From contig NZ_CP053941.1 in the NCBI RefSeq assembly GCF_013267195.1, forward strand, positions 2,232,001-2,296,000: a stretch of DNA of 64,000 bases. Direction: 5' to 3'. This document shows, piece by piece, positions 440 through 64,000 of this stretch. The first letter of the stretch is position 1, and each line of letters begins with the position of its first letter. Source of the stretch: Halorubrum salinarum (GTDB taxonomy: Archaea > Halobacteriota > Halobacteria > Halobacteriales > Haloferacaceae). Both the position numbers and the translations under genes were made by a program. The notes below the pieces were generated by a model. That model was not told where the DNA came from and did not search any database. It was given only the letters and a program-made list of their open reading frames with translations.

Positions 440-1174
440 TTAGAACCCGACCCGCTCCCCGTCCTCGGGAACCAGCACGTCCTCCGTCGCCGCCCGGAGT
501 TCCTCCCGCGAGAGCAGGCAGTGGTTGATCGCCTCCATGTGGACCACGGCGACCGCGGCGTCGGTCGCCTCGCGCACGGCCCGTACGTCGTCGACGCCCA
601 TCGTGATCGGCTCGCCCTCGTTGAACCGCGCCGCGCCCCCGTTGAGGACGACCGCGTCGGGATCGAACCGGGCGAGCGTCTCGGCGACGGGCTCGTACCA
701 GACCGTGTCGCCGGCGAGGTACAGCGTCTCCGCGCCCTCGACGACGAACCCGGAGACGGGCCCCATCGCCTCGGCCAGTTCTCCGTGTCCGTGGCGACCG
801 GGCGTCCGGTGGAGCGTGACGCCGCCGAACGACGCCGTCTCCTCGACGGGCCGCACGTCGGTGAACCCGTCCTCGACGAACGCGTCTTCTTCGGCCGGCT
901 GGCAGAACAGCGGCACGTCCGGGTCGAGCGCTTCGACCGCCGCCTCGTCGAAGTGGTCCGGGTGGCGGTGGGTGACGACCACCGCGTCGTGCGACAGGTC
1001 GACGTCCGGCATCGGCACGAGCGGGTTGTTCCGGTCGTTCGGCGTGTCGTCGATCGGCGGCAGCGCGCCCTCCTCGGCGAACAGGGGATCGACGAGGAAG
1101 GTCGTCTCGTCCACGGTCGCGAGGACCGTGGCGTTGCGGGCGAGGGTGACGTCGAGGGCGGCGTCGGTCGACAT
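440..1174 (-). CDS. metallo-beta-lactamase fold hydrolase (UlaG-like)
   Basis: This 244-residue protein has the metal-binding signature THRHPDHFDE at residues 68-77 (H69, H71, D73, H74) and a second metal motif, AGDT, further on. These are the hallmarks of the metallo-beta-lactamase fold, here closest to the UlaG-like MBL proteins often annotated as metal-dependent hydrolases. The substrate cannot be told. I chose the ATG at 1174 because the upstream in-frame extension is arginine-rich and not haloarchaeal in character, whereas the protein from 1174 is acidic. No signal peptide is seen, so it should be cytoplasmic. A divergent membrane-protein gene starts 192 bases away. Confidence 0.85.
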   Translation of the reverse strand: MSTDAALDVTLARNATVLATVDETTFLVDPLFAEEGALPPIDDTPNDRNNPLVPMPDVDLSHDAVVVTHRHPDHFDEAAVEALDPDVPLFCQPAEEDAFVEDGFTDVRPVEETASFGGVTLHRTPGRHGHGELAEAMGPVSGFVVEGAETLYLAGDTVWYEPVAETLARFDPDAVVLNGGAARFNEGEPITMGVDDVRAVREATDAAVAVVHMEAINHCLLSREELRAATEDVLVPEDGERVGF

Positions 1175-1365
1175 ACCGCCCCTTCGGCGAGCGCGGTGTT
1201 GTGGCTTGCGGCGGGACCCCCGCCGACCGCGGCGTCCGCGAGTTATTTGTCGGCCGCGGGTCAACCCGTGCGTCATGAACGGATGTGAGTCGACGTGAGC
1301 CCGCGCGGTCTGCGCTCAACGAGCGACGGGACCGGCGACGACCTCTCGGTGCGCGTCGAACCGCG

Positions 1366-2448
1366 ATGAGCGGGTCGACCGAGGGGTCGTCGAGCGCGAG
1401 CGGCGACGCGGACGCCGCCGACGCGGGCGGCACGGACACCGCCGACACGATGCGCGAGCGCGCCGGCGAGAACCGGGTGAAGCTCTGGCTGCTGTTGCGC
1501 GCGGACCGGCTCGTCGTCGCGGCGGTGCTGACGCTCGCCGTCTTCGTCGCGTTCGTCGCCGTCGCGGTCGCGATATCGCCGTCGCTCGCGACGAAGGTCG
1601 GGTCGAGCGACCCCGTCGAGACGCTGTTCGCGTCGATGATCACGGCGATCGTCACGGGGGCGACGCTCGTCGTCACGATCGGACAGCTCGTGCTCACGCA
1701 GGAGAACGGCCCGCTCGGCGACCAGCGGGACCGCATGGACGACACGCTCGCCGTCCGGGACGACATCGCGGACCTGACCGGCGGGCCGACGCCCACGGAC
1801 CCGGCCGCGTTCCTCGACGCGATCCTCGGCGCCGCGGCGGGGCGCGCTCGGGACCTCCGCGACTCGGTTGCGGGGCAGGGTGACGACGGCGACGAGTCGG
1901 ACCGGGACGCGCTCCGAGCGGAGGTCGACGACCTCGCGACGGGGCTCACCGGGAACGCCGACGCCGTGCGCGGCCAGCTCGACGGCGCCGAGTTCGGCTC
2001 CTTCGACGTCGTCTTCGCCGCGCTGAACTTCGACTACGGGCCGAAGATCGGACAGATAGAGCGCATCGCCACCGAGCACGACGACGCCCTCACCGACGAC
2101 GAGCGGGGGCTCCTCGACGAGCTGAAAGCGACCGTGTCGCTGTTCGGGCCCGCCCGCGAGCACGTCAAGACGCTGTACTTCCAGTGGGCGCTGATCGACC
2201 TCTCGCGGCTCATCCTCTACGCCGCGGTGCCGGCGCTGGTCGTCGCGGGACTCATGGTCACGGTCGTCGACGCCGGCACGTTCCCGGGGAGCACGCTCGG
2301 CGTCGCCCACGTGACGCTCGCCGTCGGCGGCGCGTTCGCGGTCGCGCTCCTCCCGTTCTCGCTTTTCGTCTCCTACCTGCTCCGCGTGCTCACGCTCGCG
2401 AAGCGCACGCTCGCCATCGGGCCGCTGGTGCTGCGCGACTCCGAGTAG
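1366..2448 (+). CDS. membrane protein of unknown function
   Basis: The 360-residue product starts with about 40 acidic, low-complexity residues. It then has two hydrophobic helices near residues 50-70 and 88-110, a soluble acidic region of about 170 residues, and two more helices near 283-303 and 315-340. This 2+2 layout puts the middle domain on one face of the membrane. I chose the ATG at 1366 because the earlier in-frame start adds an arginine-rich stretch. I do not recognise the family beyond a haloarchaeal integral membrane protein. No catalytic motif is visible. Confidence 0.75.
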   Translation: MSGSTEGSSSASGDADAADAGGTDTADTMRERAGENRVKLWLLLRADRLVVAAVLTLAVFVAFVAVAVAISPSLATKVGSSDPVETLFASMITAIVTGATLVVTIGQLVLTQENGPLGDQRDRMDDTLAVRDDIADLTGGPTPTDPAAFLDAILGAAAGRARDLRDSVAGQGDDGDESDRDALRAEVDDLATGLTGNADAVRGQLDGAEFGSFDVVFAALNFDYGPKIGQIERIATEHDDALTDDERGLLDELKATVSLFGPAREHVKTLYFQWALIDLSRLILYAAVPALVVAGLMVTVVDAGTFPGSTLGVAHVTLAVGGAFAVALLPFSLFVSYLLRVLTLAKRTLAIGPLVLRDSE

Positions 2449-2972
2449 CGGGCGCGGTCGCTCTCTGAGAGACGGCGCGCTCGGGGGCGGAAGATGTCGC
2501 CCGCGACACTAACGACCGGTCTCATCTCCGGCGGCGTGCCGCGTCGACCGGGAAACCCTCGTGGCGGGCGGTCGCCTGCGCGGCGACGGGCGGGTCGCGT
2601 CTGCGACCGATGTCACGCGCCTGGGTTCTCCGCGCTGTCATCGCTCCCATCGGGGAGTACTCGGGCGGGGACTGATGGCGCGCGGCTGCCGATACCCGCC
2701 GACCGAAGTTAAAACGTCCGTCCGCGGCGCCCGGCGTCGAACTCGGACGTAGCGTGAGAGTGTCACGCATTCCTATTTGTCACGTGTTAGCCGTCGGAGC
2801 GGATCCGGAGACCCGGGACGGATCGCGCCGCTCGGTGACGGTCCGTCGGGCGCGAGGCGCCATCGCCGACGCATCGTCGTCGGATCGGCCGTTCCGCCGA
2901 TCCGCCGCCCGCGACCGGCGGAATCGACCCGTATCCGAACGCACTTACGTCCCTGTCACGGACCCACGCGCA
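2449..2972. other. 524-base intergenic stretch with no supported gene
   Basis: Short open frames on both strands here are arginine- and proline-rich and look like shadows rather than acidic haloarchaeal proteins. I see no tRNA-like cloverleaf and no RNase P or SRP RNA signature. The right end carries the promoter of the next gene: a TATA-like CACTTACG at 2942-2949 lies about 27 bases before its ATG. The rest holds nothing I can name. Confidence 0.5.
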
Positions 2973-4019
2973 ATGTCAGTCCGAGTCGGTATCCTCGGCG
3001 CGACGGGCGCCGTGGGCCAGCGATTCATCCAGCTGCTCGACGACCACCCGACCTTCGACCTCGCCGCGGTCACGGCGAGCTCGGAGAGCGCGGGCGAGAC
3101 GTACCGCGAGGCGGCCAAGTGGCGCGTCGACACGCCGATCCCGGCGGACGTGGCCGAGATGGAGGTCGCGGAGACGACCCCGGAGGGGATCGCCGACGCC
3201 GACGTGGACCTCCTCTTCTCCTCGCTCCCCTCGGGCGTCGCCGCGGAGGTCGAGCCCGCGTTCCTGGAGGCCGGCTACGTCGTCTCCTCGAACTCCTCGA
3301 ACGACCGCATGGCCGCGGACGTGCCGCTCACCATCCCCGAGATCAACCCCGACCACCTCGACCTGATCGAGGTCCAGCGCGACGAGCGCGGCTGGGACGG
3401 CGCGCTGGTGAAGAACCCCAACTGCTCGACGATCACGATGGTGCCGACGCTCGCGGCGATCGACGAGTTCGGCCTGGAAAGCGTCCGCGTCTCCACGCTC
3501 CAGGCCGTCTCCGGCGCCGGCTACTCCGGCGTCACCTCGATGGAGATCATCGACAACGCCATCCCGCACATCGGCGGCGAGGAGAACAAGATGGAGACGG
3601 AGTCGCGCAAGCTCCTCGGCGAGTTCGACGGCGCCGAGGTCGCGCTCCACGACGCCGACGTGGCCGCCTCGTGTAACCGGATCCCGACGCTCGACGGCCA
3701 CCTGGAGAACGTCTTCGCCGAGTTCGCCGAGGACCCCTCCCCGGCGGACCTCCGCGAGGCGATGCGCTCGTTTGAGGGCGTCGGCGACCTCCCCAGCTCG
3801 CCGGACCAGCTCATCAAGGTGTTCGGCGAGGACGAGCCCGAGCGCCCGCAGCCCCGCCTCGACCGCACGTACGCCGACGGGATGGGGATCGTCGCCGGCG
3901 GCGTCCAGTCGACCGACGCCGGCGCGAAGTACAACTGCCTCGCGCACAACACGATCCGCGGCGCGGCGGGCGCCTCGCTGCTCAACGGCGAGCTGCTCGT
4001 CGAGGAAGGGTACGTCTGA
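2973..4019 (+). CDS. asd: aspartate-semialdehyde dehydrogenase
   Basis: This enzyme reduces aspartyl-4-phosphate to aspartate-4-semialdehyde with NADPH, the branch point towards lysine, threonine and methionine. The 348-residue protein has the N-terminal nucleotide-binding motif GATGAVGQRF (residues 9-18) and the catalytic cysteine in NPNCSTITM (C151), typical of the archaeal/fungal type of Asd. Length fits the family. The ATG at 2973 was chosen because the protein begins directly with the Rossmann strand, and a TATA-like box sits about 27 bases upstream, suggesting a leaderless mRNA. A small membrane-protein gene follows 52 bases later. Confidence 0.95.
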   Translation: MSVRVGILGATGAVGQRFIQLLDDHPTFDLAAVTASSESAGETYREAAKWRVDTPIPADVAEMEVAETTPEGIADADVDLLFSSLPSGVAAEVEPAFLEAGYVVSSNSSNDRMAADVPLTIPEINPDHLDLIEVQRDERGWDGALVKNPNCSTITMVPTLAAIDEFGLESVRVSTLQAVSGAGYSGVTSMEIIDNAIPHIGGEENKMETESRKLLGEFDGAEVALHDADVAASCNRIPTLDGHLENVFAEFAEDPSPADLREAMRSFEGVGDLPSSPDQLIKVFGEDEPERPQPRLDRTYADGMGIVAGGVQSTDAGAKYNCLAHNTIRGAAGASLLNGELLVEEGYV

Positions 4020-51658: not shown

Positions 51659-52153
51659 CTATCGAGGGTCGTCAGGGTTCCCTGACGGGAAGTGCCGTTC
51701 AGGATCGACGTCGGCACAGATCCGACAGATCGGGCTCGGCCCGTCATCTGGTTCAACCCACATCCCGTCGAGTGACCGGCCGCACTCAGCGCACTCCTCC
51801 GGGAAGTCCGGGAATCGGTACGCGTCAATCAGTTCGTAAATCCAGATCGCCTCAGCGATCTTCGACCGAGCCTCGGCTGCGACTTCCCTGAAGCCGGACA
51901 AGCTCTCGAACCCGTGTCGTTGAACGAACTGTTCAGCCATCTCCTCGTCCGTCATGACTGGAGATGTCCCGAGTTGCCCCCACACGAACGCGAAGGCCTC
52001 CGGTCCACTCAGCAGCGCCGTGTCCTCAAGCGCAGCTTTCAGTTCGTTGTCCAGCGGATGGTACGGGTTACTGAACGTCTCGTCGATTGTCGTCTCGTTA
52101 CCGTATCGTTGCGAGTCAGTCGGGAACTGCTCGCGGATGGGTTTGTCTGGCAT
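51659..52153 (-). CDS. zinc-ribbon protein of unknown function
   Basis: The 164-residue protein ends with a zinc ribbon: C121 and C124 in EECAECGRSL, and C143 and C146 in PICRICADV. The rest is helical with an acidic N-terminus. The start is uncertain; I use ATG 52153, but an in-frame ATG at 52261 would add 36 residues. It lies downstream of the RAMP operon on the same strand, 384 bases away, and may belong to the same island. Confidence 0.6.
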   Translation of the reverse strand: MPDKPIREQFPTDSQRYGNETTIDETFSNPYHPLDNELKAALEDTALLSGPEAFAFVWGQLGTSPVMTDEEMAEQFVQRHGFESLSGFREVAAEARSKIAEAIWIYELIDAYRFPDFPEECAECGRSLDGMWVEPDDGPSPICRICADVDPERHFPSGNPDDPR

Positions 52154-52537
52154 TGGTGTATCCGTAGTTGTGACTGGGTTGCCGGTTGCGTCGTTTACAG
52201 TGCCGTCGGCTGACGAGGAAGCCGGACCCTCCCTCAAAGTACTACGGATGCACAGATCACGCATCCACGTCGTTCCTGAGCTGTCCGGTGATGGCTTACA
52301 ATCACGTCGAGATGGTGTGTGATTATCAACTTTTCCCCCACCCCTCGCGGCACGCACACGGCACGTCACAGCAGACACCGCGCCAGCACGACTGGCTCCC
52401 TATCGAAACCCTACCTTCAACCCCGCTCCTCTCCCGGCTCTGCTGAACGACCAGATCTTTCTACCGCTGAGCGGACAGGGTTCGTGAGTTGGTGCTCGCC
52501 ACATGGCGAGGTGGCACCCCGCGACTACACTCGCGGA
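52154..52537. other. 384-base gap without a supported gene
   Basis: The stretch contains GGCTCTGCTGAACGACC at 52435, like the terminus seen at other decayed insertion sites, and an AT-rich box near 52322. An in-frame extension of the zinc-ribbon gene could reach part of this region. Otherwise nothing is seen. Confidence 0.35.
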
Positions 52538-53263
52538 TCACTGACGGTACTGAACCGGTCCGAGCCGCGTTACTTGCCCGTCTTCGACGAGTCGCACAAG
52601 CCCGTCTTCGGTCGGGAAGCCGAACGTCCCTGTTTCGACTGGGCGGCCCGGCGCGACACACCGAAAGTACGCGCCTTGCGGGTACTCAGCGAGGATCCGG
52701 CGTTGACACCCGGCGACATCGAACATCCCGAGATCGTACGCGCCGTCCCGCTGTGCGATCCGCGCCGCCCCACGCCGATACCCGAGCAGCTCCCGCGGCT
52801 CAAACTCCGTCATCGACTCCACGGGGAACGCATAGTTCTTGAACGTCACCGGATCGCCCAGCGACAACGTCTCGGCCACCGGGTCATACTCACCGAACCG
52901 GAACGGCGCTTGTAACTCCGGCGTCAACGCCTCACACGCGTCACGCATCCGGTCTCGATGCTCCGTGTGGAACACCCAGTGAACCACGAATCCCAAGCGC
53001 AGCGCTTCCCGCGTCTTCGCCCGGAACGGTTGGTCGGATCCAGCGACGAACTCAATCCACCGGTTCACGTCGCCCCCGATCACCGCACAGTCCGGAACGC
53101 GGTCAGCAACCGTCCGCTCAAACCGGTACTCACCGTGGAAGAACGGCTCGGTTTGCGCGCGGCGACGCCGCTCCAACTCTAATTTCGGCCAGAGATGCGC
53201 CCGCGACTCTTTCCCCGCGGTTCGGAATCCGTCGATGTCATCGGGGAAGTCGTCCGTACTCAC
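52538..53263 (-). CDS. CoiA-like nuclease-fold protein, last gene of the RAMP operon
   Basis: The 241-residue protein starts with KESRAHLWPKLELERRRR (E19, H23, K27), then RVPDCAVIGGDVNRWIEFVAG (D58, E71) and FRAKTREALRLGFVVHWVFH. This order matches the CoiA competence family, a PD-(D/E)xK-fold nuclease, with the residue after E replaced by V at the usual K/Q position, so catalysis is not certain. It lies 37 bases after the exonuclease gene. I read it as a nuclease partner of the RAMP proteins. Confidence 0.55.
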   Translation of the reverse strand: MSTDDFPDDIDGFRTAGKESRAHLWPKLELERRRRAQTEPFFHGEYRFERTVADRVPDCAVIGGDVNRWIEFVAGSDQPFRAKTREALRLGFVVHWVFHTEHRDRMRDACEALTPELQAPFRFGEYDPVAETLSLGDPVTFKNYAFPVESMTEFEPRELLGYRRGAARIAQRDGAYDLGMFDVAGCQRRILAEYPQGAYFRCVAPGRPVETGTFGFPTEDGLVRLVEDGQVTRLGPVQYRQ

Positions 53264-53300
53264 TGTCCATCACCCGCCGTCAACCGCGTTGCGTGCCGTG

Positions 53301-53957
53301 TCATGTGTCGGTCCGTGTCGGTGTTAGCGACTTCACGTCGAACTCTGATTTCGCACAGTACCGTTCCGCGAGCCGCCCGAGGCCACGCGTCCGCAGCACG
53401 TCCGCCACGTTATGCGCCGCGAGCGCCGCGAACCGCGCCTCCTCGAACGCCGTCACCGCCTCGCTACTCTCCGCGAACGGGTCGAGCTCACCGTACTCGC
53501 CGTCGCACAGCACGTCGTACGCAGTGTCGAGATCGTTGCGCGCGTCCCCGTCAACAGTCGTGTTGAACCGCTTCGAAACGACCGGCATGACGTCCGCGTA
53601 CGGCACCCCCGCGAACGCCCACGACAAATCAAGGCGCGCGAACCGCGTGCGGAGGAACGGCAGGTCAAACCCGCCGCCCCACCGTTCTCCGTTGTACGCG
53701 ACGAGCAACACGTCCGCGTCCCGGAACCGCTCCGCAACGAACCCGGACACGGCCGCTAGTAGGTCGTCCTCGGACGAGTGCGTCGACGCCTTCACGACCA
53801 CGTCGCCGTCGACCTCGTCGATACTAGGAGCGGCGCGGCCGCCCGTGTTCACGAACACGCGGACACCGAGCGGCACCGCGAACCCGACCACCGTGACGAC
53901 GTCATCCGCGTCGAACCCGGTCGTCTCGATATCGAACGGCACTTGCCGCAACGTCAC
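53301..53957 (-). CDS. DEDD 3'-5' exonuclease (RNase H-like)
   Basis: The 218-residue protein has a complete DEDD site: D9 and E11 in PFDIETTGF, D98 in AYNGERWGGGFDLPFLR, and H182/D186 in AAHNVADVLRTRG. It resembles the exonuclease domain of family B DNA polymerases and single-domain RNase H-like exonucleases. It overlaps the RAMP gene by four bases. In this operon it probably trims or cuts nucleic acid recognised by the RAMP complex; that role is inferred. Confidence 0.8.
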   Translation of the reverse strand: MTLRQVPFDIETTGFDADDVVTVVGFAVPLGVRVFVNTGGRAAPSIDEVDGDVVVKASTHSSEDDLLAAVSGFVAERFRDADVLLVAYNGERWGGGFDLPFLRTRFARLDLSWAFAGVPYADVMPVVSKRFNTTVDGDARNDLDTAYDVLCDGEYGELDPFAESSEAVTAFEEARFAALAAHNVADVLRTRGLGRLAERYCAKSEFDVKSLTPTRTDT

Positions 53958-54895
53958 GCCCCGTCACCCCCGGCGTCTGCCCGGCCCGGCACGCGCCGCT
54001 CACCAGCCGGTCTGACGCGGAACTCTCCGAATCCGTACTTCGAATGCGTTCCGACGCGACGCACGCCGTTCACCGCCGTCCGCACCGGCTCCGACCCAGT
54101 GTACGGAACAACTTGCCCGTGATCGATCGTGTCCACCACGTACACCTTGCCGTCATCGACGACGCGGGTGTCTCGCCGCCGCACCTCGTCATCCCCGACC
54201 TTCCACCACCACGGCACGTCCTGATCGTCCGCACCCGGGTACTCCGACGCGGTGACGAACGGCGTCACCAACTCAATCAAGCACGGCTCGCCGTCCCGCT
54301 GCGCCGCTTCCAACCGCGCGTAATCCAGGTCCGCTAACTCAACGACCTGCGTGTCCGCAACCGACAGTTCACCGAACCCGTAGTTCCGCGCAGCCCCGAC
54401 CTGGATCCCGTCAAGCACCGCGTCACTCAACGGAACCGTGTCACCGGCCCCGTCCACATGTACGTAGCAGTGCACGTACCACGACACGGACCGCCGCGTG
54501 TTCCGCATCTCCTCCGGCCGGCCAAACCACGACGTGTCAGCGTACGCCACGCGCCCACCGTGCGTCTGTACATCGTGCGTGTTCTGCGCATCTCGCGGCC
54601 TGGAATCCAGCATCCACCGGTGCGCCGGGTCACGGTACAGGAACAAGTCCTCGTACGCGTCCACCGTCGGGAGCGACCCGCCGAGCTTCCCCGCATACCC
54701 CGGCATCGAATGCGCGTCCGGATACTCACCGTACTCCTCCGGCACGAACACCCCGTGACTCACCCGCAATCGTCGCCGCGTCTCGTCATTCACGCGCGGC
54801 GCAATCGCGTTAAACAACGCGTTACCGCTCACAAAGTACGGGTGCCCCATGTACGGCCCCTCCAACGCGAACAACACCTGCTGAATCCGCGTCAC
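53954..54895 (-). CDS. RAMP-superfamily protein with two glycine-rich loops (Cas5/Cas6-like)
   Basis: The 313-residue protein has two glycine-rich loops typical of RAMP proteins: VGAARNYGFGEL at 166-177 and VGTHSKYGFGEF at 281-292. Two RRM-like halves each ending in such a loop are expected for a Cas5- or Cas6-type protein. A histidine (in RVSHGVF) might be catalytic in a Cas6-like role, but this is uncertain. The start is a GTG at 54895, and the gap before it (54896-55316) holds repeats. It overlaps the exonuclease gene by four bases. Confidence 0.65.
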   Translation of the reverse strand: MTRIQQVLFALEGPYMGHPYFVSGNALFNAIAPRVNDETRRRLRVSHGVFVPEEYGEYPDAHSMPGYAGKLGGSLPTVDAYEDLFLYRDPAHRWMLDSRPRDAQNTHDVQTHGGRVAYADTSWFGRPEEMRNTRRSVSWYVHCYVHVDGAGDTVPLSDAVLDGIQVGAARNYGFGELSVADTQVVELADLDYARLEAAQRDGEPCLIELVTPFVTASEYPGADDQDVPWWWKVGDDEVRRRDTRVVDDGKVYVVDTIDHGQVVPYTGSEPVRTAVNGVRRVGTHSKYGFGEFRVRPAGERRVPGRADAGGDGA

Positions 54896-55316
54896 GCGAC
54901 CAACCCCACGCTCCCACTAGAGACCGCCACACGTTCACACACCACACTACCAGCACCCCGCACCACACACCCCGTTTCCAGTGTTCTCCACGACGTACTC
55001 TCCCCGCGATCCACACACCCTGTTTCCAGTGTTCTTCGCCGACCCGTCACGCGATCCGCACACCTCGTGTCCAGTGTTCGCACCGTGTCTCGGTGGCAGG
55101 GTCGAAGCGGCACTCCCAACTGCGACCCGCACCACCGGTTTCCGAGCCGCGCACCGGCCCCGCGTCGTCCCACCACGAACAACCCGGCACCAAGCCCGCG
55201 GCCCGCGGCACACGCCCGTCGCGGCTGCGAGCCCACCACAACCCGCAGCCCCGACCCACGACCAGGTCGCCTCCCCAGGACCGCACCGCCCCGTCGACCC
55301 CGCCCACCCGCCCGGA
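54896..55316. other. 421-base non-coding gap inside the RAMP operon
   Basis: All other genes of this operon overlap or nearly touch, so this gap is exceptional. It contains three repeats (54963-55080) and a possible degenerate copy near 55124. It is C-rich on the plus strand, and I see no TATA box, so the two flanking genes probably remain on one transcript. A frame across it (minus strand) is rich in R, G and C and nearly free of D and E, so I do not call it a gene. Confidence 0.6.
54963..55080. repeat. three CRISPR-like 25-bp repeats with 23- and 20-base spacers
   Basis: Repeats start at 54963, 55011 and 55056. Each has a C-rich head (CCACACACCC) and the core TTTCCAGTGTTC or a close variant. 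Copies 1 and 2 differ at one position of 25; copy 3 differs from copy 2 at five. The spacers (54988-55010, 55036-55055) are not similar to each other. Copies 2 and 3 also share CGCGAT just before them. The repeat read on the operon strand could form a small stem (ACAC pairing with GTGT). Confidence 0.6.
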
Positions 55317-56183
55317 TCACCTCCCCACCCCGCCACGCACCGCAGCACCCACATCGCGCTCTACGACATCTTCCACGTACTGTAGCGCCGTCGAAAACGA
55401 CCGGACTCGCCGTAGTTGCGCATCCACCACGCGCAGCCACTTCCGCTCCAAATCCAGGGGCTCCGCCGACAACCGCGACCACGTATCCGCAAACGCCCGC
55501 GCCGGCCCCGCCCCAAGCGACGCCACCGCCCCCGTCGAAGGTGCGTCACCCGTCACGCGGACCGCCAGTTCAGACGTCCACAGCACCGTCCGGCACGGCA
55601 CCACCACTTCGGCGTCAAGCGCCGCCGCCACACGACCATCATCGCCGTCGCCAGTCGGCGGGCCGCGCGCCGGCCGCTCCGCCACGAGACAGAGATCCTC
55701 GAACGCGTGCCCCGCGCGGTAATTATCGAGCAGCGCCGCCACCAGCAACGTGTGGTACTTCAGTGACGTGTACGGGACGTACACGGACTCGTTGAACCGC
55801 GCCGCCACATCACTCGTCAACCACTCAGCGTGGAGTCGCGCCGGGTCCGAACACCCCGGCCTGACCAGCCCACGCACATCCTCCACAGACGCTGGCACCT
55901 CCCCGGGATCCGCGACCGTCGCCCCCGTCACCAGGGAAAGCCGTGCCGGCGACACGTGATTCGCCACTGTTTGCTCCGGCTCACCCGACGGCCGACTCAA
56001 CACCGCCGCATCCCCATCCGCACCGCACGGCACCGACTGATTCACCCGCACCCCGCACACCTCCCTGTCAGCCGACGCATGCCGCTTCCCGCGGAGCTTG
56101 TGCACGTCGTGCCGGAACGCCGCCACCAACCCGCCCGACTCACCATCACCACCAGGCACCTGAGCGGACTCCGACCCCGTCAC
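55317..56183 (-). CDS. conserved RAMP-operon protein, function unknown
   Basis: The 288-residue protein has a helical C-terminal half (DLERKWLRVVDAQLRRVRSF, then TALQYVEDVVERDV) and a small cysteine/histidine content in the middle. I recognise no motif. It sits between the small acidic protein gene (four-base overlap) and the repeat-containing gap. From what I recall of array-less haloarchaeal CRISPR relatives, they always contain one uncharacterised conserved protein next to the RAMPs; this could be it. Confidence 0.55.
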   Translation of the reverse strand: MTGSESAQVPGGDGESGGLVAAFRHDVHKLRGKRHASADREVCGVRVNQSVPCGADGDAAVLSRPSGEPEQTVANHVSPARLSLVTGATVADPGEVPASVEDVRGLVRPGCSDPARLHAEWLTSDVAARFNESVYVPYTSLKYHTLLVAALLDNYRAGHAFEDLCLVAERPARGPPTGDGDDGRVAAALDAEVVVPCRTVLWTSELAVRVTGDAPSTGAVASLGAGPARAFADTWSRLSAEPLDLERKWLRVVDAQLRRVRSFSTALQYVEDVVERDVGAAVRGGVGR

Positions 56184-56455
56184 GCCCCATCACCCGCGCC
56201 CGACTCGCCCTCGTCCTCACCCGACACCCTCTCACTTCGGCGCTCCCAGATACTCGCAGGCGTTTCCTGCACCGTCTCCGTCACCGTCGTCGGCGACTGC
56301 AGCTCATTCAACTCCCCGTCCACCCCCGCATCACTCTCGCCTTGCGCTTCCCACTCAATCGGGTCCTGCGCAGGATTCGTCGCCGTCGTCGGCGGCCGCG
56401 GCTCATCGAGATCAACTTCTTCATCCTTGCCGCTCGGCTCGTCCGAGTCCGTCAC
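56180..56455 (-). CDS. small acidic linker protein of the RAMP operon
   Basis: The 91-residue protein is nearly all acidic and disordered in appearance (SGKDEEVDLDEPRPPTT, then EGESGAGDGA). It overlaps the Cas7-like gene upstream and the unknown gene downstream by four bases each. Because of the tight coupling it is probably real, perhaps a small subunit or linker of the complex. Confidence 0.5.
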   Translation of the reverse strand: MTDSDEPSGKDEEVDLDEPRPPTTATNPAQDPIEWEAQGESDAGVDGELNELQSPTTVTETVQETPASIWERRSERVSGEDEGESGAGDGA

Positions 56456-57399
56456 GCCGACCCACCTCCCGGCACCGGTGAGTCACCATCACGCGCCGCC
56501 ACACGCGCCTGTAACGCCGCCACGAACTCCCCGCGGACCGACTCCCGCCACACATCATCCTTCCACTCCATCCCCGACGTCGCATCCTGCGCGCGATTAA
56601 ACACGCGCTTGATCTCCGCGTCCGAGTACAGCGGGTTGATGACGCGCGCATCAACCATGCCCGCCCCGAAATTCCGCGCCCCACCGAGCTGTAACTCGAA
56701 CTCGTTGCTGTGCGCGTCGAGGTAATCGACCGCCTCCACGAGCAGCCCAACGTACTCCGGTTTCAGTTCTCGAAGCGAGAGTTTCCACGTCCCCACGAGG
56801 TTCCCGACGACGTCCCGCGACGCCATCCGCAGCGGCTGCCCGTCATCCTCGCTGTTCCGCGAGCGGACCTGCGTGTTCAGTTGACGGTAGTGCGCCTCTG
56901 CTTCGCCTTGGAGCACGTCCACTTGCCTGCGGATCGGCGAGAACCCGATCGGTCTGCGGACGAGACGCCCCGCCCGGTCATTGAACCCACCGAACAAATC
57001 GTAGAGTACACACCCCTCGTCGCCATCCACACACGAGCCTTTCTCATGGTAGCCGGCATCGAGATCACGCTCGTACACGTCGTCAAGCATGTACTCCGCA
57101 TCCGCCGCACCCGGGTGGCACGCCGTGCCTCCCGCTGCCTGTACGACGCGTTCACACCCGTGCCGCAACCACCCCGACAGTGGGAACGGCGACACCATGC
57201 CCCCGATTTGGTTCTGCGGGTCGTCGGCCTCGTACCGGTCAGCCGAGGCGTGGTGTCTGTCCGTGACAATCCCGTCGCCCGGCGCGAGCAGTGGGATTTC
57301 AAGCCCCACGTACACATCCGGGAGTGTGAGATCGTCTACGTCGTCCGGGAGTGTGAACTCGTAATCGAGGTGCTCCGTTTCAAACTCCGGCACCATCAC
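56452..57399 (-). CDS. Cas7/Csm3-like RAMP protein
   Basis: The 315-residue protein has three Csm3/Cas7-family features: a PLSGWLRHGCERV segment like the serine-glycine-arginine motif of Csm3 and Csf2, a CVLYDLFGGFNDRAGRL segment like the cysteine-LFG motif of that family, and a late glycine-rich loop LGGARNFGAGM (238-248). These suggest a backbone subunit that binds a guide or target RNA. It overlaps both neighbours by four bases. No signal or membrane segments. Confidence 0.7.
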   Translation of the reverse strand: MMVPEFETEHLDYEFTLPDDVDDLTLPDVYVGLEIPLLAPGDGIVTDRHHASADRYEADDPQNQIGGMVSPFPLSGWLRHGCERVVQAAGGTACHPGAADAEYMLDDVYERDLDAGYHEKGSCVDGDEGCVLYDLFGGFNDRAGRLVRRPIGFSPIRRQVDVLQGEAEAHYRQLNTQVRSRNSEDDGQPLRMASRDVVGNLVGTWKLSLRELKPEYVGLLVEAVDYLDAHSNEFELQLGGARNFGAGMVDARVINPLYSDAEIKRVFNRAQDATSGMEWKDDVWRESVRGEFVAALQARVAARDGDSPVPGGGSA

Positions 57400-57893
57400 C
57401 GCCCACCCCCACCAGCCCGCATGTGCTCACAAACAGCCGTCAGGAGTGAAGTCGGGCCATCACGATGCTCATCCGTCTCAGCACTCTCAGTGATCCCGTC
57501 ACGCGACGCATCACCCACCGCACGAGCCGCACTCGACGACGCCGCACTCACCACCACCAGCGACGGGTCAACCAGCACCAACCACGACGACTGCGTCGCA
57601 ACATCCGTACAGAGACCGATCCTGCCCGTGACGACCAGTTCATGAACACCACGCGTAAACACCGACGGGTGTTCGTGTTCATCCGCCCCGCACATCACGA
57701 ACCCAATTTCAAAAATCGGGTTGCCAGCCGCCCGGAAGGCATACGCCGTTACGTCGTCGCCTTCCCCGAGTCCGCAGCCGCACACCTGACACATCGCGGC
57801 CCCTTCCCCGAGCGCATATTTTTCTAACTGGTATATAGCTTCAATAAACTGTTCACCGATAGTCTCTTGCCATTTCGGATTTGACTTTACCAT
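57396..57893 (-). CDS. zinc-binding first gene of the RAMP operon
   Basis: The 165-residue protein has C35, C38 and C40 in MCQVCGCGLG, then C68, H73 and H75 in VMCGADEHEH, which could build a zinc finger, and a long low-complexity C-terminus. Type IV CRISPR systems carry a similar zinc-finger protein (Csf1), but I cannot show homology. It is the first gene after the structured leader and the operator. Start is ATG 57893. Confidence 0.55.
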   Translation of the reverse strand: MVKSNPKWQETIGEQFIEAIYQLEKYALGEGAAMCQVCGCGLGEGDDVTAYAFRAAGNPIFEIGFVMCGADEHEHPSVFTRGVHELVVTGRIGLCTDVATQSSWLVLVDPSLVVVSAASSSAARAVGDASRDGITESAETDEHRDGPTSLLTAVCEHMRAGGGGR

Positions 57894-57914
57894 GGGATTC
57901 TCACGTCCGTGGGA

Positions 57915-57981
57915 AGCCCAGCCCGGGTGTCACTACCACCCAGGCATTCGTTGGATCGTTACGCCCCGTCGGGGCTGGGCT
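57915..57981 (-). promoter_or_regulatory. foldable leader RNA of the RAMP operon
   Basis: On the operon strand the outer arms AGCCCAGCCC (57972-57981) and GGGCTGGGCT (57915-57924) are exact complements. Inside them lie a small hairpin (GGGTG 57925-57929 with CACCC 57937-57941) and, competing with the outer arm, GCCCC-GTC-GGGGC at 57963-57975. Given a TATA box near 58005 the transcript would begin about at the outer arm, so an 85-base leader would be structured. Confidence 0.55.
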
Positions 57982-57991
57982 CCACATCCAT

Positions 57992-58005
57992 TATGAGTAC
58001 TCATA
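57992..58005. promoter_or_regulatory. 14-bp perfect palindrome, shared operator
   Basis: TATGAGTACTCATA is fully self-complementary. It overlaps the TATA box (CATATAGG) of the plus-strand HTH gene and of the divergent RAMP operon, so one bound protein could control both. The HTH gene 30 bases away is the obvious candidate binder. Confidence 0.7.
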
Positions 58006-58033
58006 TAGGTAAATACCTTTCGGATATCTCATA

Positions 58034-58327
58034 ATGGAGGTTGAAATACCGTCAGGACTAATCAGTGTGACCGAAAACAGGAGAATAATGCCTGGCCGTG
58101 ACGAAGAAACAGGGCGATATACCGGTCAGTACCCTACTGACGATTTTCTTAATGCTATTGATGAAGAAGGAGGAATGGCCGGTACCGGTGAGATTGCGGA
58201 CCACGTAGGCTGCGCGCACGACACGGCGTATAAGCGGCTTCAAGAGCTTGAAAAAGAAGGAATGATCTCTTCTCGTAAAATGGGCAACACGCTACTGTGG
58301 GAGAGGAGTAGAACAAAAGAAAACTAA
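58034..58327 (+). CDS. winged-helix HTH regulator divergent from the RAMP operon
   Basis: The 97-residue protein begins MEVEIPSG and has a helix-turn-helix: GTGEIADHVGCAHDTAYKRLQELEKEG (about 50-77). It resembles small MarR/ArsR-like haloarchaeal regulators. The ATG at 58034 lies about 28 bases after the TATA box, giving a leaderless mRNA; an in-frame ATG at 58088 is an alternative. The operator palindrome overlaps the box, indicating autoregulation and control of the divergent operon. Confidence 0.75.
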   Translation: MEVEIPSGLISVTENRRIMPGRDEETGRYTGQYPTDDFLNAIDEEGGMAGTGEIADHVGCAHDTAYKRLQELEKEGMISSRKMGNTLLWERSRTKEN

Positions 58328-58363
58328 AGTCACAGTCTTCCTGCTGTTCACATATATACTCAG

Positions 58364-59725
58364 CTACCTATTTAGCACGTTCTTTAGAATTCCGGGCAGT
58401 TCCTCACTGAGTTCCCCTGCCTGTAGAATGGTTATTGGCTCGTCTACCTGTGCGTCTACGGACAGCGTCTCCCGATCAAGGTCCTGTACGACAAGGAGGC
58501 CATTCCACCCGTTGCCGAAGATATCTGCCTCACCAGTTGTGTCTCGCCCGAACACGTAGTCTTCGTTGATTCGGAGGAAGGCGAGGTATTCGAGGGTCTC
58601 TTTGATTCCAGTTCGGATTGTTTCTTCGCGGGTACTATGCTTCACTTCGGCAATGAGGTATTCGTACGTGATCGGTTCGTCGGATTTGACTTCGAGGACG
58701 ATAACGTCGGGACGGCCCGTGTGATTCTGGAAGTTCTTCTCGAAGTACGTGCTGGCGACGTCGCGTGCGGTTTGTTGGACGTGCTCAGCACGAGTTGGCT
58801 CTCGGCCGTCTGGCGTCGCTTCTGTGCGGAAGGAGAGGCCGCGGTTGCTGGCGGATGTGTCGTGGTATAGCACGATCTCTTGCTCGCCGTCGATCTTGGC
58901 GACTTCTTGGCGTCCGCTTTTGATTGTTTGAAAGACGGGCTGTGTGTCTTGTAGGTCTTCGAGCGTGGTGATGAATCGGAAGAGGACATAAAGCTCGAAG
59001 AGTCGGGCTTGGTCGTCTGGGGTGATGGCGGTTTGACTCAATAGTGTACGTAGCGCATCGGGGTTGCCGTCGAATAATTCTTGACGGGCGCGGAGAAGCG
59101 TGGCGGCATCGCGGTAGATTTCTTGTCGGGAGTTGGCGGCGGTGGTGAGCATGCGTTCGGTTGGTTCGTACGTTTCTGGGTCGCGGATGCGGCGGACGTG
59201 GACGTTGCGTTCGACGGTGCGTTGTACCTGGTCGATGAGGTCGGTGTTAGCTTGCCACCGGTCGGTGACCCAGTCGTAGTTGCCTTTCAGGTACTCGTCG
59301 GCGTCGCGCAGCGTTGTGTAAATAACGGAGAGGAGGCGTTTGAGGACGATGTTTTCGGGGATGTTGTAGTCTTCGGACCGGTTTTCGGTGACGAACAGCG
59401 ACCGGTCGTTCGGGTTGGTGGAGTACCGGGCTTTGACGGTTGAGCCCCAGTTGATGTGCCCGTCAATGCCACCGCGTTGGGTGCGGGCGACGGTTTTCGT
59501 TTCGGTGCGGACGTTTCGCAGGCGTTGTGAGAGTTGCTCGACGAACTCGACGACGTCGGGTTTGAGGATGAAGTGTAGGTCGAGGAGGAGCTCGTAGTCC
59601 TCGAAGCGTTGGTCGAGCGCTTCGGGTTTGATCGAGGCAGCGAGTTCTCGTTTGGGGAACCCGCCGTTCATGACGTACGCGAGGATGTCTTGGGTGAGCC
59701 CGTCGATGAGGTCCTCGCGGTTCAT
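58364..59725 (-). CDS. McrC-like PD-(D/E)xK restriction nuclease subunit
   Basis: The 453-residue protein has the nuclease core D340 in GRPDVIVLEV and E360/K362 in LIAEVKHS, with RLFELYVLFRF (about 241-251), the McrC/DUF2357 motif, before it. The N-terminal 200 residues are helical. In the McrBC type IV restriction system this subunit cuts DNA next to modified bases. It overlaps the McrB-like gene by four bases. Confidence 0.8.
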   Translation of the reverse strand: MNREDLIDGLTQDILAYVMNGGFPKRELAASIKPEALDQRFEDYELLLDLHFILKPDVVEFVEQLSQRLRNVRTETKTVARTQRGGIDGHINWGSTVKARYSTNPNDRSLFVTENRSEDYNIPENIVLKRLLSVIYTTLRDADEYLKGNYDWVTDRWQANTDLIDQVQRTVERNVHVRRIRDPETYEPTERMLTTAANSRQEIYRDAATLLRARQELFDGNPDALRTLLSQTAITPDDQARLFELYVLFRFITTLEDLQDTQPVFQTIKSGRQEVAKIDGEQEIVLYHDTSASNRGLSFRTEATPDGREPTRAEHVQQTARDVASTYFEKNFQNHTGRPDVIVLEVKSDEPITYEYLIAEVKHSTREETIRTGIKETLEYLAFLRINEDYVFGRDTTGEADIFGNGWNGLLVVQDLDRETLSVDAQVDEPITILQAGELSEELPGILKNVLNR

Positions 59726-61992
59726 GACTCAGTCTCTGTGTCGATCGTGACTTGGAGCATGTCGCTCGCAGCGGTTCTGAGCGTGTCGGTGTCGGTTGCG
59801 TCGACGGCTGCGATGTGCGTGATGATTTGCTTGCGTTCCGGGACGCCTTCGAGCTGCGGGAAGATGTAGCTGATAACGGCCTCGGTGACGCGTTCAGACA
59901 GGTCGTCTGTCGCGGAGGTGCGGCGGTTCGTGACGTACGTGAGCATGTCGCGGACGATTGCGGGGCCGATCGACCGGTCGTCAACGGCTTGGTTCGTCTG
60001 CTTCCACACTTGCCCAATCGCGTCGCGTTCCTCGTCGCTCGGGTCAAGCCCGTCCCACGCGTCGATGTACGCGTTCATCTCGGTCGTCAGTTCAGTACGT
60101 GCGGTGTCGTCGTCGCTGGTGGTGAATTCTGGTGCGGGAACGCGGATGAATGCGAAGCGCCGCATGAACGCGTAGCTCATTTCGTACAGCGAGGTTTTGT
60201 CGTACGTGTTCATGGTGGCGAAGATCCGCCAGGAGTCGGGGACGACGTACTGGTGTTCAGCGGGGAGGCCGTCGAGGTGGTCGGTGGTGAGGAGTTCGAT
60301 TTCGCGGTTATTTCGCGTGAAGGGGAGTTGAACGGATTGACCGGAGAGCAGCGTGAATAACTGGCCGAAGGCTTTGTCGATGTCGGCGCGATTCAACTCG
60401 TCGATGATGACGGGCTCGTTCGATTGAACGCCGGTCCGCGTGTCTTTGAGCCGATTGAGAATGATGCCGGGGGTGAACGCGAGATCGGAGTCTGCGTTGT
60501 CGCCGCCGGTCTCGGTCGGCATGTACCCGCCGACGGTGTCGAACGTGGACCAGTCAGCGGTCGCCGTGGTGAGTTCAGATCCGGAGTACAGGTGCGGGTA
60601 CGCGTCAGCGAGGTACGTGGCGACGCGTTCTACGATCTCGGTTTTCCCGGTGCCGGGTGGGCCGGTTAGGATGATGTGGTCGCCGGCGAGGAGTGCGGCT
60701 TCGATTTGTTCGATGATGGTTTCACCCAGCTCATCCGGGAAGTATAACCCATCAAGGAGTGACCCTGTGTCGAGATTCCCAGTAAACGGTTTGTGGATCG
60801 CAACCGGGGGGACCTCCTTGAGGTGCGCTGTGATAGCGTTCACGAGTGTACGGCCAGGTTCCGAGTCGGCCGTTGTATCGAGTGGCTCCTGGATACGGTG
60901 GCGAGGAAAGCCAGCTTCTGTGGTCTCATTACAGATTGTGTCCGCTGTCTCGAAGGACATTCCGTTAGCTGTCAGAGCTGTGAGATTGTCGTTCGCCTCC
61001 GTGGTGTCCTTGCTCAGGATGGATCGTGAGAAATCGATGTCCTCGATATCCCCAGTAGCGTAAAGTCGGTCAAACGTCACAAGATAGGGGAACGACTGAT
61101 CTTTTGGCGAATTGGGTCGCTCATCGTACCACCAGGATTCGTCTTGGGGCTTGGTCGTCAGCGCACCGATGATGCCTACACCGAGAATACAGCTTGCTTG
61201 TTCGTCGAGCGCCTCCCGCGCTGGCTCGCTGCGAGAGTGGAAGAGCACGATGTCACCAGGCGACAGATCCACCCACAGTCCGTGATCGGATTCCCCGAAG
61301 GCGAATGCTGCGTATTCGAAGGTTGTGAGCCAGCTGTCCGGTGGTGCCGTCAGTTTGTAGATGCGGGCATCTGTCTCCTGAATGTACACCGCAAGGGGAT
61401 GATCGGGATCGATTCCATCTTGCTTGTAATTGCGTCCCTCGATCTCTTTTTTTTCGGGCCAAATGGAGGAATCGTCCTCATCGCTGGACTCCCTCGAATT
61501 TTCGAGTCGTGTACGGACGGCTTCCGTAACACTGTCGTGTTCTAAGAGTCCGTCGATGTACGTCTGCTTGTACTCGGGAAAGAGATTGACAACATTTCGC
61601 GTGGCGAGCGTTTTCACCGCTTCGAGATTGGCGTTAGACACTTCCGCGAATCGCTCCCAATTCTCTCGGTATATCGAATTAAATTCATCTTGGACAGTAT
61701 TACAGAAGACAATCCACTCGAAGTCATAACCGGGGACTGAATGAGATGTTTTGTCCGCGGGAACAATTTCTCTTACTTCGAAGACTGCTCCAATCCCAGA
61801 GTCGTCTGAGACGATCCGCGCCAGGACAGTATCTCCTTCTCGAAAGTCATCCGGTGACAAGCCGTCTGTATCCGTGAAGCCGAATCGGGGAGTGACATCT
61901 TCGTCACCTTCGTCACCGGCCTTGTGACCGAGACAATCGTCCCAAACTTCTGAATCGATATTGAAAACCCAGGTATCTGTATGACGAGTCAT
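59722..61992 (-). CDS. McrB-like AAA+ motor with EVE/PUA-like N-terminal modules
   Basis: The 756-residue protein has the AAA+ core of McrB: Walker A GPPGTGKT (444-451), Walker B VIIDELNRAD (528-537) and the MNTYD (594-598) signature. Before it lie two EVE/PUA-like modules, about residues 8-110 (WVFNIDSEVWDDCLGHK) and 205-335 (DSWLTTFEYAAFAF, GDIVLFHS), which probably read the modified base in place of the usual DNA-recognition domain. It drives the McrC-like nuclease. Confidence 0.85.
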   Translation of the reverse strand: MTRHTDTWVFNIDSEVWDDCLGHKAGDEGDEDVTPRFGFTDTDGLSPDDFREGDTVLARIVSDDSGIGAVFEVREIVPADKTSHSVPGYDFEWIVFCNTVQDEFNSIYRENWERFAEVSNANLEAVKTLATRNVVNLFPEYKQTYIDGLLEHDSVTEAVRTRLENSRESSDEDDSSIWPEKKEIEGRNYKQDGIDPDHPLAVYIQETDARIYKLTAPPDSWLTTFEYAAFAFGESDHGLWVDLSPGDIVLFHSRSEPAREALDEQASCILGVGIIGALTTKPQDESWWYDERPNSPKDQSFPYLVTFDRLYATGDIEDIDFSRSILSKDTTEANDNLTALTANGMSFETADTICNETTEAGFPRHRIQEPLDTTADSEPGRTLVNAITAHLKEVPPVAIHKPFTGNLDTGSLLDGLYFPDELGETIIEQIEAALLAGDHIILTGPPGTGKTEIVERVATYLADAYPHLYSGSELTTATADWSTFDTVGGYMPTETGGDNADSDLAFTPGIILNRLKDTRTGVQSNEPVIIDELNRADIDKAFGQLFTLLSGQSVQLPFTRNNREIELLTTDHLDGLPAEHQYVVPDSWRIFATMNTYDKTSLYEMSYAFMRRFAFIRVPAPEFTTSDDDTARTELTTEMNAYIDAWDGLDPSDEERDAIGQVWKQTNQAVDDRSIGPAIVRDMLTYVTNRRTSATDDLSERVTEAVISYIFPQLEGVPERKQIITHIAAVDATDTDTLRTAASDMLQVTIDTETES

Positions 61993-62011: not shown

Positions 62012-62485
62012 CTATTCCGCGGACGGTTTGAGGCTGCTGATTTCTCTCTCAATCTCTTCGAGTACGCCAACCCGTTCCTTCATTTCATCTTCGTTGCGAT
62101 GGTCTTGGATAAAGTCTACGAGGTTATCCAAATTATCTCCTGGCTCATCAACGACTTCCTTCTCAATGAGGCGGGCACCACCAGCGCCGTACCGGCTCAA
62201 TACATCAAATTGGTCGTGGGGATCCAGAATAACCTCCGGGTCCTCTGTCACGGCATAGGCTAAGGACGCAGTAATCACCGACAACTGACTATCTTGGCCG
62301 ATGTAGTTCCACCTGATGTAGTTGTCCTCACCTGGGTCATCGACCGACCGATCTTTTGCGTACCCAACGCTTGCCGCAAAAACCAGGAACCGAACCCGGG
62401 AATCGAAAATCGGTGAGTCGCCATCAGCAAGCTCTTCGAACGCTTCGTTATTTTCGTATTTGAATGTAAGCGTACCTGAGGACAT
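62012..62485 (-). CDS. small Dnd-associated-like protein
   Basis: The 157-residue protein has the segment FLVFAASVGYAKDRS and a helical middle, and resembles small proteins that I associate with DNA phosphorothioation (Dnd) clusters, similar to dnd system-associated protein 4. It is not DndE. It overlaps the DndD-like gene by one base and lies 20 bases before the McrB-like gene, so all may form one operon. Confidence 0.45.
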   Translation of the reverse strand: MSSGTLTFKYENNEAFEELADGDSPIFDSRVRFLVFAASVGYAKDRSVDDPGEDNYIRWNYIGQDSQLSVITASLAYAVTEDPEVILDPHDQFDVLSRYGAGGARLIEKEVVDEPGDNLDNLVDFIQDHRNEDEMKERVGVLEEIEREISSLKPSAE

Positions 62486-64000
62486 TAATAATCACCTCCA
62501 GTCTTTCTGACTAAGTCAGTGTACTCGTAATTCGTGCCGGATTCTTCTCCAGGGTCATGGTAATCCAGGTAGTAACGCTCACCGGCAACATGCTCCATCT
62601 CGTTGGCGACTGCTTCGCTCCACTGGGACTGGGTTACCATGACCACGACTTGTTGTGCCATCTCCGGGAGCATCCGGCTCACACGCTCCTGATACGTCGG
62701 GTCCAGCGAGCCGAATGGAGAGTCCATTATCATCGGATAGATGCCACCCTTGAAATACGTGGCATCCTCGTCAGATTCGTATCGCTCTCGGGCCAGTGAA
62801 ATCAGAGTGGCTATGAAGGAGAGGCTGGCCACCTGCCGCTCTCCCTGCGATTGCGCGACCGGAATCTCCGATGTTTCGCCGACATCTTTTAAGATTTGTA
62901 GAGTATAATTGTCTGAAATTTTCGCATAGTAGTTCTTTGCGATGATGTCCTGAAATATTTCGTTCACACGCTCATTAACGTTCTGGCGAACCTCATCCTG
63001 ATACTGCTGGAACAGTGTTGATATCTGGCTTTGTAGGTAAGCCGCCGTTTGTGCTCGTTTTCGAGCTAATTGTGCTTTCTCGTTCTCTTCTTTTGCTTCG
63101 GCGATCTCGTCTTCGAGTGTCTCGCGTTTGTCTTTGAGTTCCTCTATTTCTGAGTCTAAATTACGGATTTTCTCCTCGTACTCTCCGATTTTCCCAAGAA
63201 GATTACTGCGTCTGGACTCAAGTTCCGAAATACTTTCTTGCTCTTCGTCACTCAGCTGAGAGCTGATTTCGTCAAGGCGCTCCTGAATCTCTTGTTTTTT
63301 ATCGGCCTTCTGTGCCCGTCTGCTCAGGTGGCGTTCGATCTCTGAGTATAGCTTTTCCTGGTCACCACCAAGCTCACTCAGCCGACCTACGATCGACATC
63401 GCCGTCTCCTCAATTTCCGTCGAGCCTGCGCGTTCACGCCATCCCTTCACCTCTTCGTAAGGATCTGTTCCCTCTTTAAGCGGGCGGCCACAGATACATT
63501 CCTTCAGGTCAAGCAAGTCATCCACGAAGTGAGTCTTGATATCAGAGGGAATCTCACCTTTCTCCCGCTTCTTTTGAAGCATTTTACCCGTCTCTTCGAC
63601 CGCGGGCATCGCAAATGGTAGGAAGCCACGCTCCGAGATTTCGCGCGCAATATCGTCGTTAATGGCCTCGATATCTGAATTGACATCCGCGAGTTCTTCT
63701 TTCAAATTGTCGCGCTCTATCTGGAGTTCTCGGCTCCCTTCGAGCTGACTCAGTCGATCTTCAATGTCCGAAACCTCATCTTCCGTTTCGGATTTCGACT
63801 TTCGATGGCTTTCCAGCGTATCCTCCTTAGTGGTAATCTGTTGTGTGATCTCCTGTTTTTCACTGATGAGGTTTGATAGTTCTTCACTCCCCTGTTCCTG
63901 AGCAATTTGCTCATACTTTTCAACCGCATGCCCAAGATGCCTCTTAGAGCGCTCTAGAATAGTCAGCCCCATAATATTTCGAATAGCTTCCTGTATCTTC
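62485..64000 (-). CDS. DndD-like SMC ATPase, N-terminus beyond the window
   Basis: The readable 505 codons read on past the window edge, so the N-terminal Walker A is missing. The visible part contains AIRNIMGLTILERSKRHLGH, long coiled-coil arms with ECICGRPL as a zinc-hook-like turn, and the C-terminal SQGERQVASLSFIATLISLA signature plus IYPMIMDSPFGSLDP (Walker B and D-loop). This is the layout of DndD, the ATPase of DNA phosphorothioation, though ABC-ATPases in other defence systems look similar. The downstream restriction genes favour a modification-restriction system. Confidence 0.7.
   Translation of the reverse strand, partial: KIQEAIRNIMGLTILERSKRHLGHAVEKYEQIAQEQGSEELSNLISEKQEITQQITTKEDTLESHRKSKSETEDEVSDIEDRLSQLEGSRELQIERDNLKEELADVNSDIEAINDDIAREISERGFLPFAMPAVEETGKMLQKKREKGEIPSDIKTHFVDDLLDLKECICGRPLKEGTDPYEEVKGWRERAGSTEIEETAMSIVGRLSELGGDQEKLYSEIERHLSRRAQKADKKQEIQERLDEISSQLSDEEQESISELESRRSNLLGKIGEYEEKIRNLDSEIEELKDKRETLEDEIAEAKEENEKAQLARKRAQTAAYLQSQISTLFQQYQDEVRQNVNERVNEIFQDIIAKNYYAKISDNYTLQILKDVGETSEIPVAQSQGERQVASLSFIATLISLARERYESDEDATYFKGGIYPMIMDSPFGSLDPTYQERVSRMLPEMAQQVVVMVTQSQWSEAVANEMEHVAGERYYLDYHDPGEESGTNYEYTDLVRKTGGDY

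Follow-up and report, generated by a model that had tools for sequence, protein, structure and literature searches.

Among the systems derived from CRISPR, HRAMP is an array-less derivative of type III systems that occurs in Halobacteria and has RAMP-type proteins, with no guide known for them (PMC8730458, PMC12669027). Origin recognition boxes (ORBs), in turn, are elements of haloarchaeal replication origins that are bound by Orc1/Cdc6 (PMC3528665, PMC4164010). The ORB motif published for all archaea is TCCA[CG]T[TG]GAAA[TC][GA]AAGGGGT, and the one published for the Halobacteriaceae is TT[TC]CACC[GCT]GAAAC[GA][AC][GA]G[GT]G[GT] (PMC4164010). Such boxes can also cluster outside an origin proper, as in oriC2D from Haloarcula hispanica, where 11 ORBs lie within 722 bp downstream of cdc6E and titrate Cdc6E (PMC3936714).

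The locus described here, from a stretch of 64,000 nucleotides of the Halorubrum salinarum genome (the window), joins elements of these systems. As in the described HRAMP systems (PMC8730458, PMC12669027), its operon contains Cas5-like, probable Cas7-like and nuclease genes. It differs from them in a gap holding an array of ORB-like boxes together with predicted RNA hairpins, neither of which is described inside an HRAMP operon in the literature searched.

An HRAMP operon with ORB-like repeats

The genes around the gap are the following, all encoded on the same strand:

53301..53957, minus strand: DEDDh/RNase H-fold exonuclease gene, after the cas5-like gene (Pfam RNase_H_2, 7e-6; PADLOC DEDDh, 6e-4)
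53954..54895, minus strand: Cas5/Cmr3-like RAMP gene of HRAMP, downstream of the gap (PADLOC Cmr3, 2e-4)
55317..56183, minus strand: conserved uncharacterised HRAMP gene, immediately upstream of the gap (homolog in 35 of 41 genome loci)
56452..57399, minus strand: probable Cas7-like RAMP gene (GGARNFGAG motif; conserved in 26 of 41 loci)

The homolog of the cas5-like gene in Halorubrum salsamenti also matches Cmr3 in PADLOC (2e-5). The top PDB matches of the AlphaFold model of the cas5-like product are Csm4, a type VII Cas5, Cas6 and Cmr, and the best Foldseek matches are all RAMPs, at a modest E-value of 2e-3. The Cas7-like candidate had no match in profile or PDB searches, and its predicted model has a pLDDT of 40. 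This gene content (cas5-like, DEDDh, uncharacterised and probable Cas7-like) fits HRAMP, in agreement with an initial annotation, made from the letters alone, which had placed the repeats within an HRAMP polycistron. A diverged Cas5-like RAMP protein and an associated nuclease are present without a CRISPR array, and Cas1 (PF01867) was not found in the genome by a search in which positive control genomes did match. The HRAMP operon has as neighbours, at 62485-63972 and 58364-61992 of the window, a gene of phosphorothioation-type defence resembling PbeC (PADLOC 3e-183) and a restriction-enzyme-like AAA+ gene, a neighbourhood that suggests a defence island.

The gap itself carries three direct repeats, whose presence and coordinates the initial annotation had given correctly, and a terminal element:

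55056..55079, minus strand: ORB-like repeat, copy 1 in transcription order, GAACACTGGACACGAGGTGTGCGG (repeat search and ORB PWM)
55011..55034, minus strand: ORB-like repeat, copy 2, GAACACTGGAAACAGGGTGTGTGG (exact match to the published ORB core)
54963..54986, minus strand: ORB-like repeat, copy 3, GAACACTGGAAACGGGGTGTGTGG (exact match to the published ORB core)
54896..54925, minus strand: terminal ORB-like element in degenerate form, abutting the cas5-like start, CTAGTGGGAGCGTGGGG (relatives have it intact, e.g., CTGGAGTGGAAACGGAGGGGTGTG)

The repeats are 24-mers on the minus strand, which is the sense strand of the operon. The 64 kb window gives three matches and its 100 dinucleotide shuffles give none, while a search of the 3.34 Mb genome at up to three mismatches found no further copy. 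The copies start 48 and 45 nt apart, which leaves intervals of 24 and 21 nt instead of the 23 and 20 reported before, and the core of the third copy reads TGTCCAGTGTTC where TTTCCAGTGTTC had been given. When the copies are extended to 32 nt, their identity with the reference is still 88% and 75%, so that each "spacer", previously called unrelated, is partly shared too, with the similarity continuing some bases into the intervals. Across loci, a further box-like element usually abuts the start of cas5 (e.g., CTGGAGTGGAAACGGAGGGGTGTGTGG directly followed by ATG), a result that is indicative only, as the regular expression used for the terminal box was overly strict.

The resemblance to ORBs became apparent in a family-wide consensus search, which found CACCGGAAACGTGGTGTG, frequently as inverted pairs. 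At the four variable positions of the common archaeal motif the HRAMP copies vary between C/G, G/T, C/T and G/A. The 11-base core CA[CG]T[TG]GAAA[TC][GA] is found 53 times in sense and never in antisense orientation in 12.9 kb of gaps, with 0.10 expected from shuffling, and five times in 569 kb of surrounding locus sequence; because copies from the same clade share ancestry, these counts do not represent independent events. The core positions are nearly invariant across copies, as is the G-string GGTGTG that follows the core in the 58 copies known. A PWM derived solely from the HRAMP repeats gives 35 scores above 10 across 566 kb flanking orc/cdc6 genes versus two in 757 kb of background, and recovers the boxes of the genome's own oriC1, TCACCGGAAACACGGTGTGT, adjoining an orc gene. 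Some oriC1-type boxes are almost identical to the HRAMP repeat: those of one genus have the sequence TTTCACTGGAAACGTGGTGTGTG, close to the HRAMP core, and in one of the loci (L179) they adjoin an Orc gene. An order-wide search with a tight pattern returned HRAMP gaps or origin-type boxes, a few single matches apart; in some viral contigs matching the repeat, the match is to a tail gene region. The exact HRAMP variant was absent from the resident origins. Taking the core match, the reciprocity of the PWM and the similarity to oriC1-type boxes together, the repeats can be called ORB-like with high confidence at the level of sequence.

The boxes share with the ORBs of haloarchaeal origins the core, the G-rich string and the variable positions, but their arrangement is different: they are direct, confined to one strand and located within an operon spacer that appears to be translated. 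No orc gene was found near them, the nearest one in the genome being about 225 kb away; no copy in the gap is inverted; and no AT-rich unwinding region is seen at the gap, where GC content is 60-76%. The gap is therefore not an ordinary replication origin, and this candidate was rejected.

Conservation of the gap among HRAMP loci

A usable cas5-like gene was available from 92 distinct loci, which formed the comparison set, and the tree of the cas5-like protein separates them into two clades with a fully supported split. Repeats directly precede the cas5-like gene in 19 of the 52 loci in the clade of the window, and in none of the 40 loci in its sister clade. The other loci in the first clade have hairpins only (3), other gap content (9), a short gap (11) or no gap (10), while 38 of the 40 sister loci lack a gap as well, and thus the gap is not essential to HRAMP. 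The repeat-bearing loci span several families and keep the gap between the same two genes; all 58 copies matched by the repeat profile are in sense orientation and in the gap upstream of cas5. The initial annotation had made much depend on whether the repeats are conserved between homologous operons, and they do recur at the same position.

The gap is also retained in loci that have lost cas5 (L183 and L197) or cas7 (L034). In L183 and L197, cas5 and the exonuclease gene have apparently been deleted and the gap persists with an ORB box and hairpins; L183 still retains the first codons of cas5. In L034, from H. salsamenti, a transposase-like gene and other sequence occupy the expected place of cas7 (766-3588), no cas7-like match is left, and cas5 and the ORB array are intact, the loss of cas7 being due to an insertion element.

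Frame and hairpins in the gap

Two further kinds of feature overlap the repeats or lie next to them:

54892..55320, minus strand: frame-preserved spacer of 142 codons, whose GTG start overlaps the stop of the gene upstream and whose TGA overlaps the start of the cas5-like gene
55224..55249, minus strand: RNA hairpin 1, loop around GUGGUGGG (z -4.3; covariance model positions 56-81)
55161..55186, minus strand: RNA hairpin 2, loop around GUGGUGGG (z -4.1)

The 421 bases from 54896 to 55316, which had been described as non-coding, are thus spanned by an open frame and probably translated. The frame that ends at the cas5 start codon is free of stops in 28 of 30 loci. It contains six stops in 3953 codons over these loci, all of them within two loci, versus 116 expected by shuffling, and the other two sense frames contain 70 and 153. 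The overlap at the 3' end is in itself no evidence, because cas5 nearly always begins with NTGA. The spacings between repeat copies are multiples of three in 35 of 39 cases.

What is preserved within this frame does not appear to be a peptide. Substitutions in the gap are spread over the three codon positions as 12/13/12, compared with 32/21/98 in cas5, and show no codon bias. Across loci, the repeat falls in three different reading frames and its wobble positions stay fixed in all of them, which means that the nucleotides are what is conserved and the peptide sequence is apparently unconstrained. The gap has diverged by 8.9%, versus 12.1% at third positions of the upstream gene and 31.5% in cas5, values with which an early impression that it evolves far more slowly than synonymous sites has weakened.

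Different gap contents are found in other loci. In a related subclade (L086, L088, L089, L090, L092, L105, and L110), gaps of 400-600 bases upstream of the cas5-like gene hold different repeats, around GATATGGTCGTGCGGTGAGTC, and the frame coupled to cas5 is likewise free of stops. In L100, an AT-richer insertion lies between the ORB-like boxes, at about -532 to -241 relative to the cas5-like gene; it includes several palindromic copies of the type GATTGTAACAATC, and its in-frame product would be a Cys-rich peptide.

Besides the boxes, many gaps contain hairpins on the sense strand with a constant GUGGUGG loop and stems that change in sequence yet remain paired. At least six of the seven stem pairs form at 18 of the 27 GTGGTGGG sites in the gaps; the mean at loop sites is 5.56 of 7 versus 3.49 +- 0.27 for reshuffled arms, and 16 distinct 5' arms are represented. 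The loops occur 60 times in sense and four times in antisense orientation. A set of 32 stems contains 28 G-U pairs and only three A-C pairs, an asymmetry that comes in part from base composition, as reshuffled arms give 34.6 and 13.7. The tolerance of G-U, the rarity of A-C and the orientation of the loops therefore indicate an RNA of the operon strand, with base composition contributing to the signal. Gaps with hairpins fold better than their shuffles (z -2.7 to -5.4), whereas most gaps with ORB-like boxes only do not. Covariance model R1, the version with three hairpins, has matches at seven places in 392 genomes, all of them HRAMP gaps as far as examined, and no curated Rfam family matched 52000-58400 up to E=1. 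A hairpin within the repeat itself was rejected: a 5-bp stem is possible, but it is broken by a C-to-G change in 7 of 58 copies without compensation. An RNA-level role, as envisaged in the initial annotation, is thus made likely for the gap by hairpins that the annotation had overlooked, and not in the form of a CRISPR array.

Possible roles of the boxes and hairpins

From the position and conservation of the boxes, the identity of their motif, the preserved frame and the co-located sense-strand hairpins, a mechanism can be inferred in which Orc1/Cdc6-type boxes and mRNA hairpins within a translated spacer would control, probably, the expression of cas5; as a reading of sequence, this proposal has about an even chance of being right. 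The boxes would constitute a small direct array of the type bound by Orc1/Cdc6. An initiator protein, whether the host's own or, as the more attractive option, one from an incoming plasmid or virus, would bind them in the DNA and modulate, as a roadblock, as a sensor or through titration, how the operon's second half (cas5-like and exonuclease genes) is transcribed. The hairpins would act on the mRNA. Ribosomes would have to traverse the gap to reach cas5, perhaps avoiding termination of untranslated mRNA, and the peptide produced would hardly matter. Titration of an initiator by a box cluster outside an origin has a precedent in Cdc6E from Haloarcula hispanica (PMC3936714), although oriC2D is intergenic and beside its cdc6 gene, whereas the HRAMP boxes are located in a defence operon, distant from orc and mixed with RNA hairpins. 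Several observations count against this proposal: the boxes have no orc gene nearby, no inverted partner and no AT-rich region, no resident origin has the exact HRAMP variant, many HRAMP loci lack the gap, all copies of the box are sense-oriented, and the hairpins suggest action at the RNA level, which DNA binding does not explain.

The main rival is accordingly a role of the gap as RNA, in which the Cas5/Cas7-like proteins would bind hairpins and repeats of the HRAMP mRNA as docking or guide segments, and the resemblance to ORBs would either allow this RNA to pair with replication origins or reflect RNA constraints. Constant loops on paired stems, the excess of G-U over A-C pairs, the sense orientation of the loops, and the restriction of R1 matches to HRAMP gaps all favour it, together with the presence in HRAMP of RAMP-type proteins for which a known guide is absent (PMC8730458, PMC12669027). 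It is considered rather unlikely, given that most ORB-only gaps have no excess structure, that the stem within the repeat is broken without compensation, and that cleavage inside the operon would sever cas5 from the mRNA. A more specific version, in which the gap transcript would be the missing RNA component of HRAMP, with the hairpins as protein-binding handles and the ORBs as fixed guides to the origins of incoming plasmids or viruses, is quite unlikely; if true, the array-less HRAMP would recognise replication origins instead of acquired spacers. The same open frame, the spacings divisible by three and the start and stop that overlap the neighbouring genes could also belong to a fast-evolving repeat protein, the DNA repeats being its by-product. 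This candidate was rejected as distinctly improbable: the frame is real, but the substitutions are even over codon positions, one DNA motif is read in three frames, the frame has no protein family match, and the predicted product is Arg/Gly-rich and basic, a composition unusual for a haloarchaeal protein.

Even less probable is that the boxes are the decaying remains of a former replication origin or integrated plasmid at this site. Such a relic would agree with the ORB type of the boxes, with the acquisition of origins by haloarchaeal chromosomes from integrated extrachromosomal elements (PMC4010727), and with the repeats that remain where cas5 or cas7 was lost. Nonetheless, the boxes occupy an identical position, flanked by the same pair of genes, in 19 loci of several families, and near-invariant core positions in a frame kept open are not expected of decay. 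The initial annotation had read the repeats as a CRISPR mini-array whose spacers guide HRAMP, a reading that short direct repeats at intervals of 21-24 nt within a CRISPR-derived operon do invite, and which is by now largely refuted and very improbable. Between the window and H. salsamenti, the intervals separating the repeats hardly differ, and they are homologous in a further locus (L005); being nearly unchanged between species, they give no sign of spacer turnover or acquisition. Across species, in contrast to the regularity of CRISPR arrays, interval lengths differ widely. The genome lacks cas1, the adaptation gene searched for, the repeat fits the published ORB motif, and the comparison of the spacers with viruses and plasmids that had been suggested gave no match in plasmid and phage collections, where the intervals are short queries and haloviruses are poorly covered.

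Control by an initiator, as in the preferred mechanism, and a built-in, origin-directed RNA are two testable candidates for how HRAMP might achieve recognition without an array. If true, either of them would tie DNA replication to a system derived from CRISPR. The gap also represents a region that is kept translatable while its nucleotides, and not its peptide, appear to be conserved.

Single ORB-like boxes, TTCACCGGAAACGMGGTGTG, are found elsewhere in the genome of H. salinarum, at positions 2143968, 2577421 and 2835256 of contig C1 (L126, L128, and L129), with no orc gene detected nearby, and are possible regulatory or titration sites.
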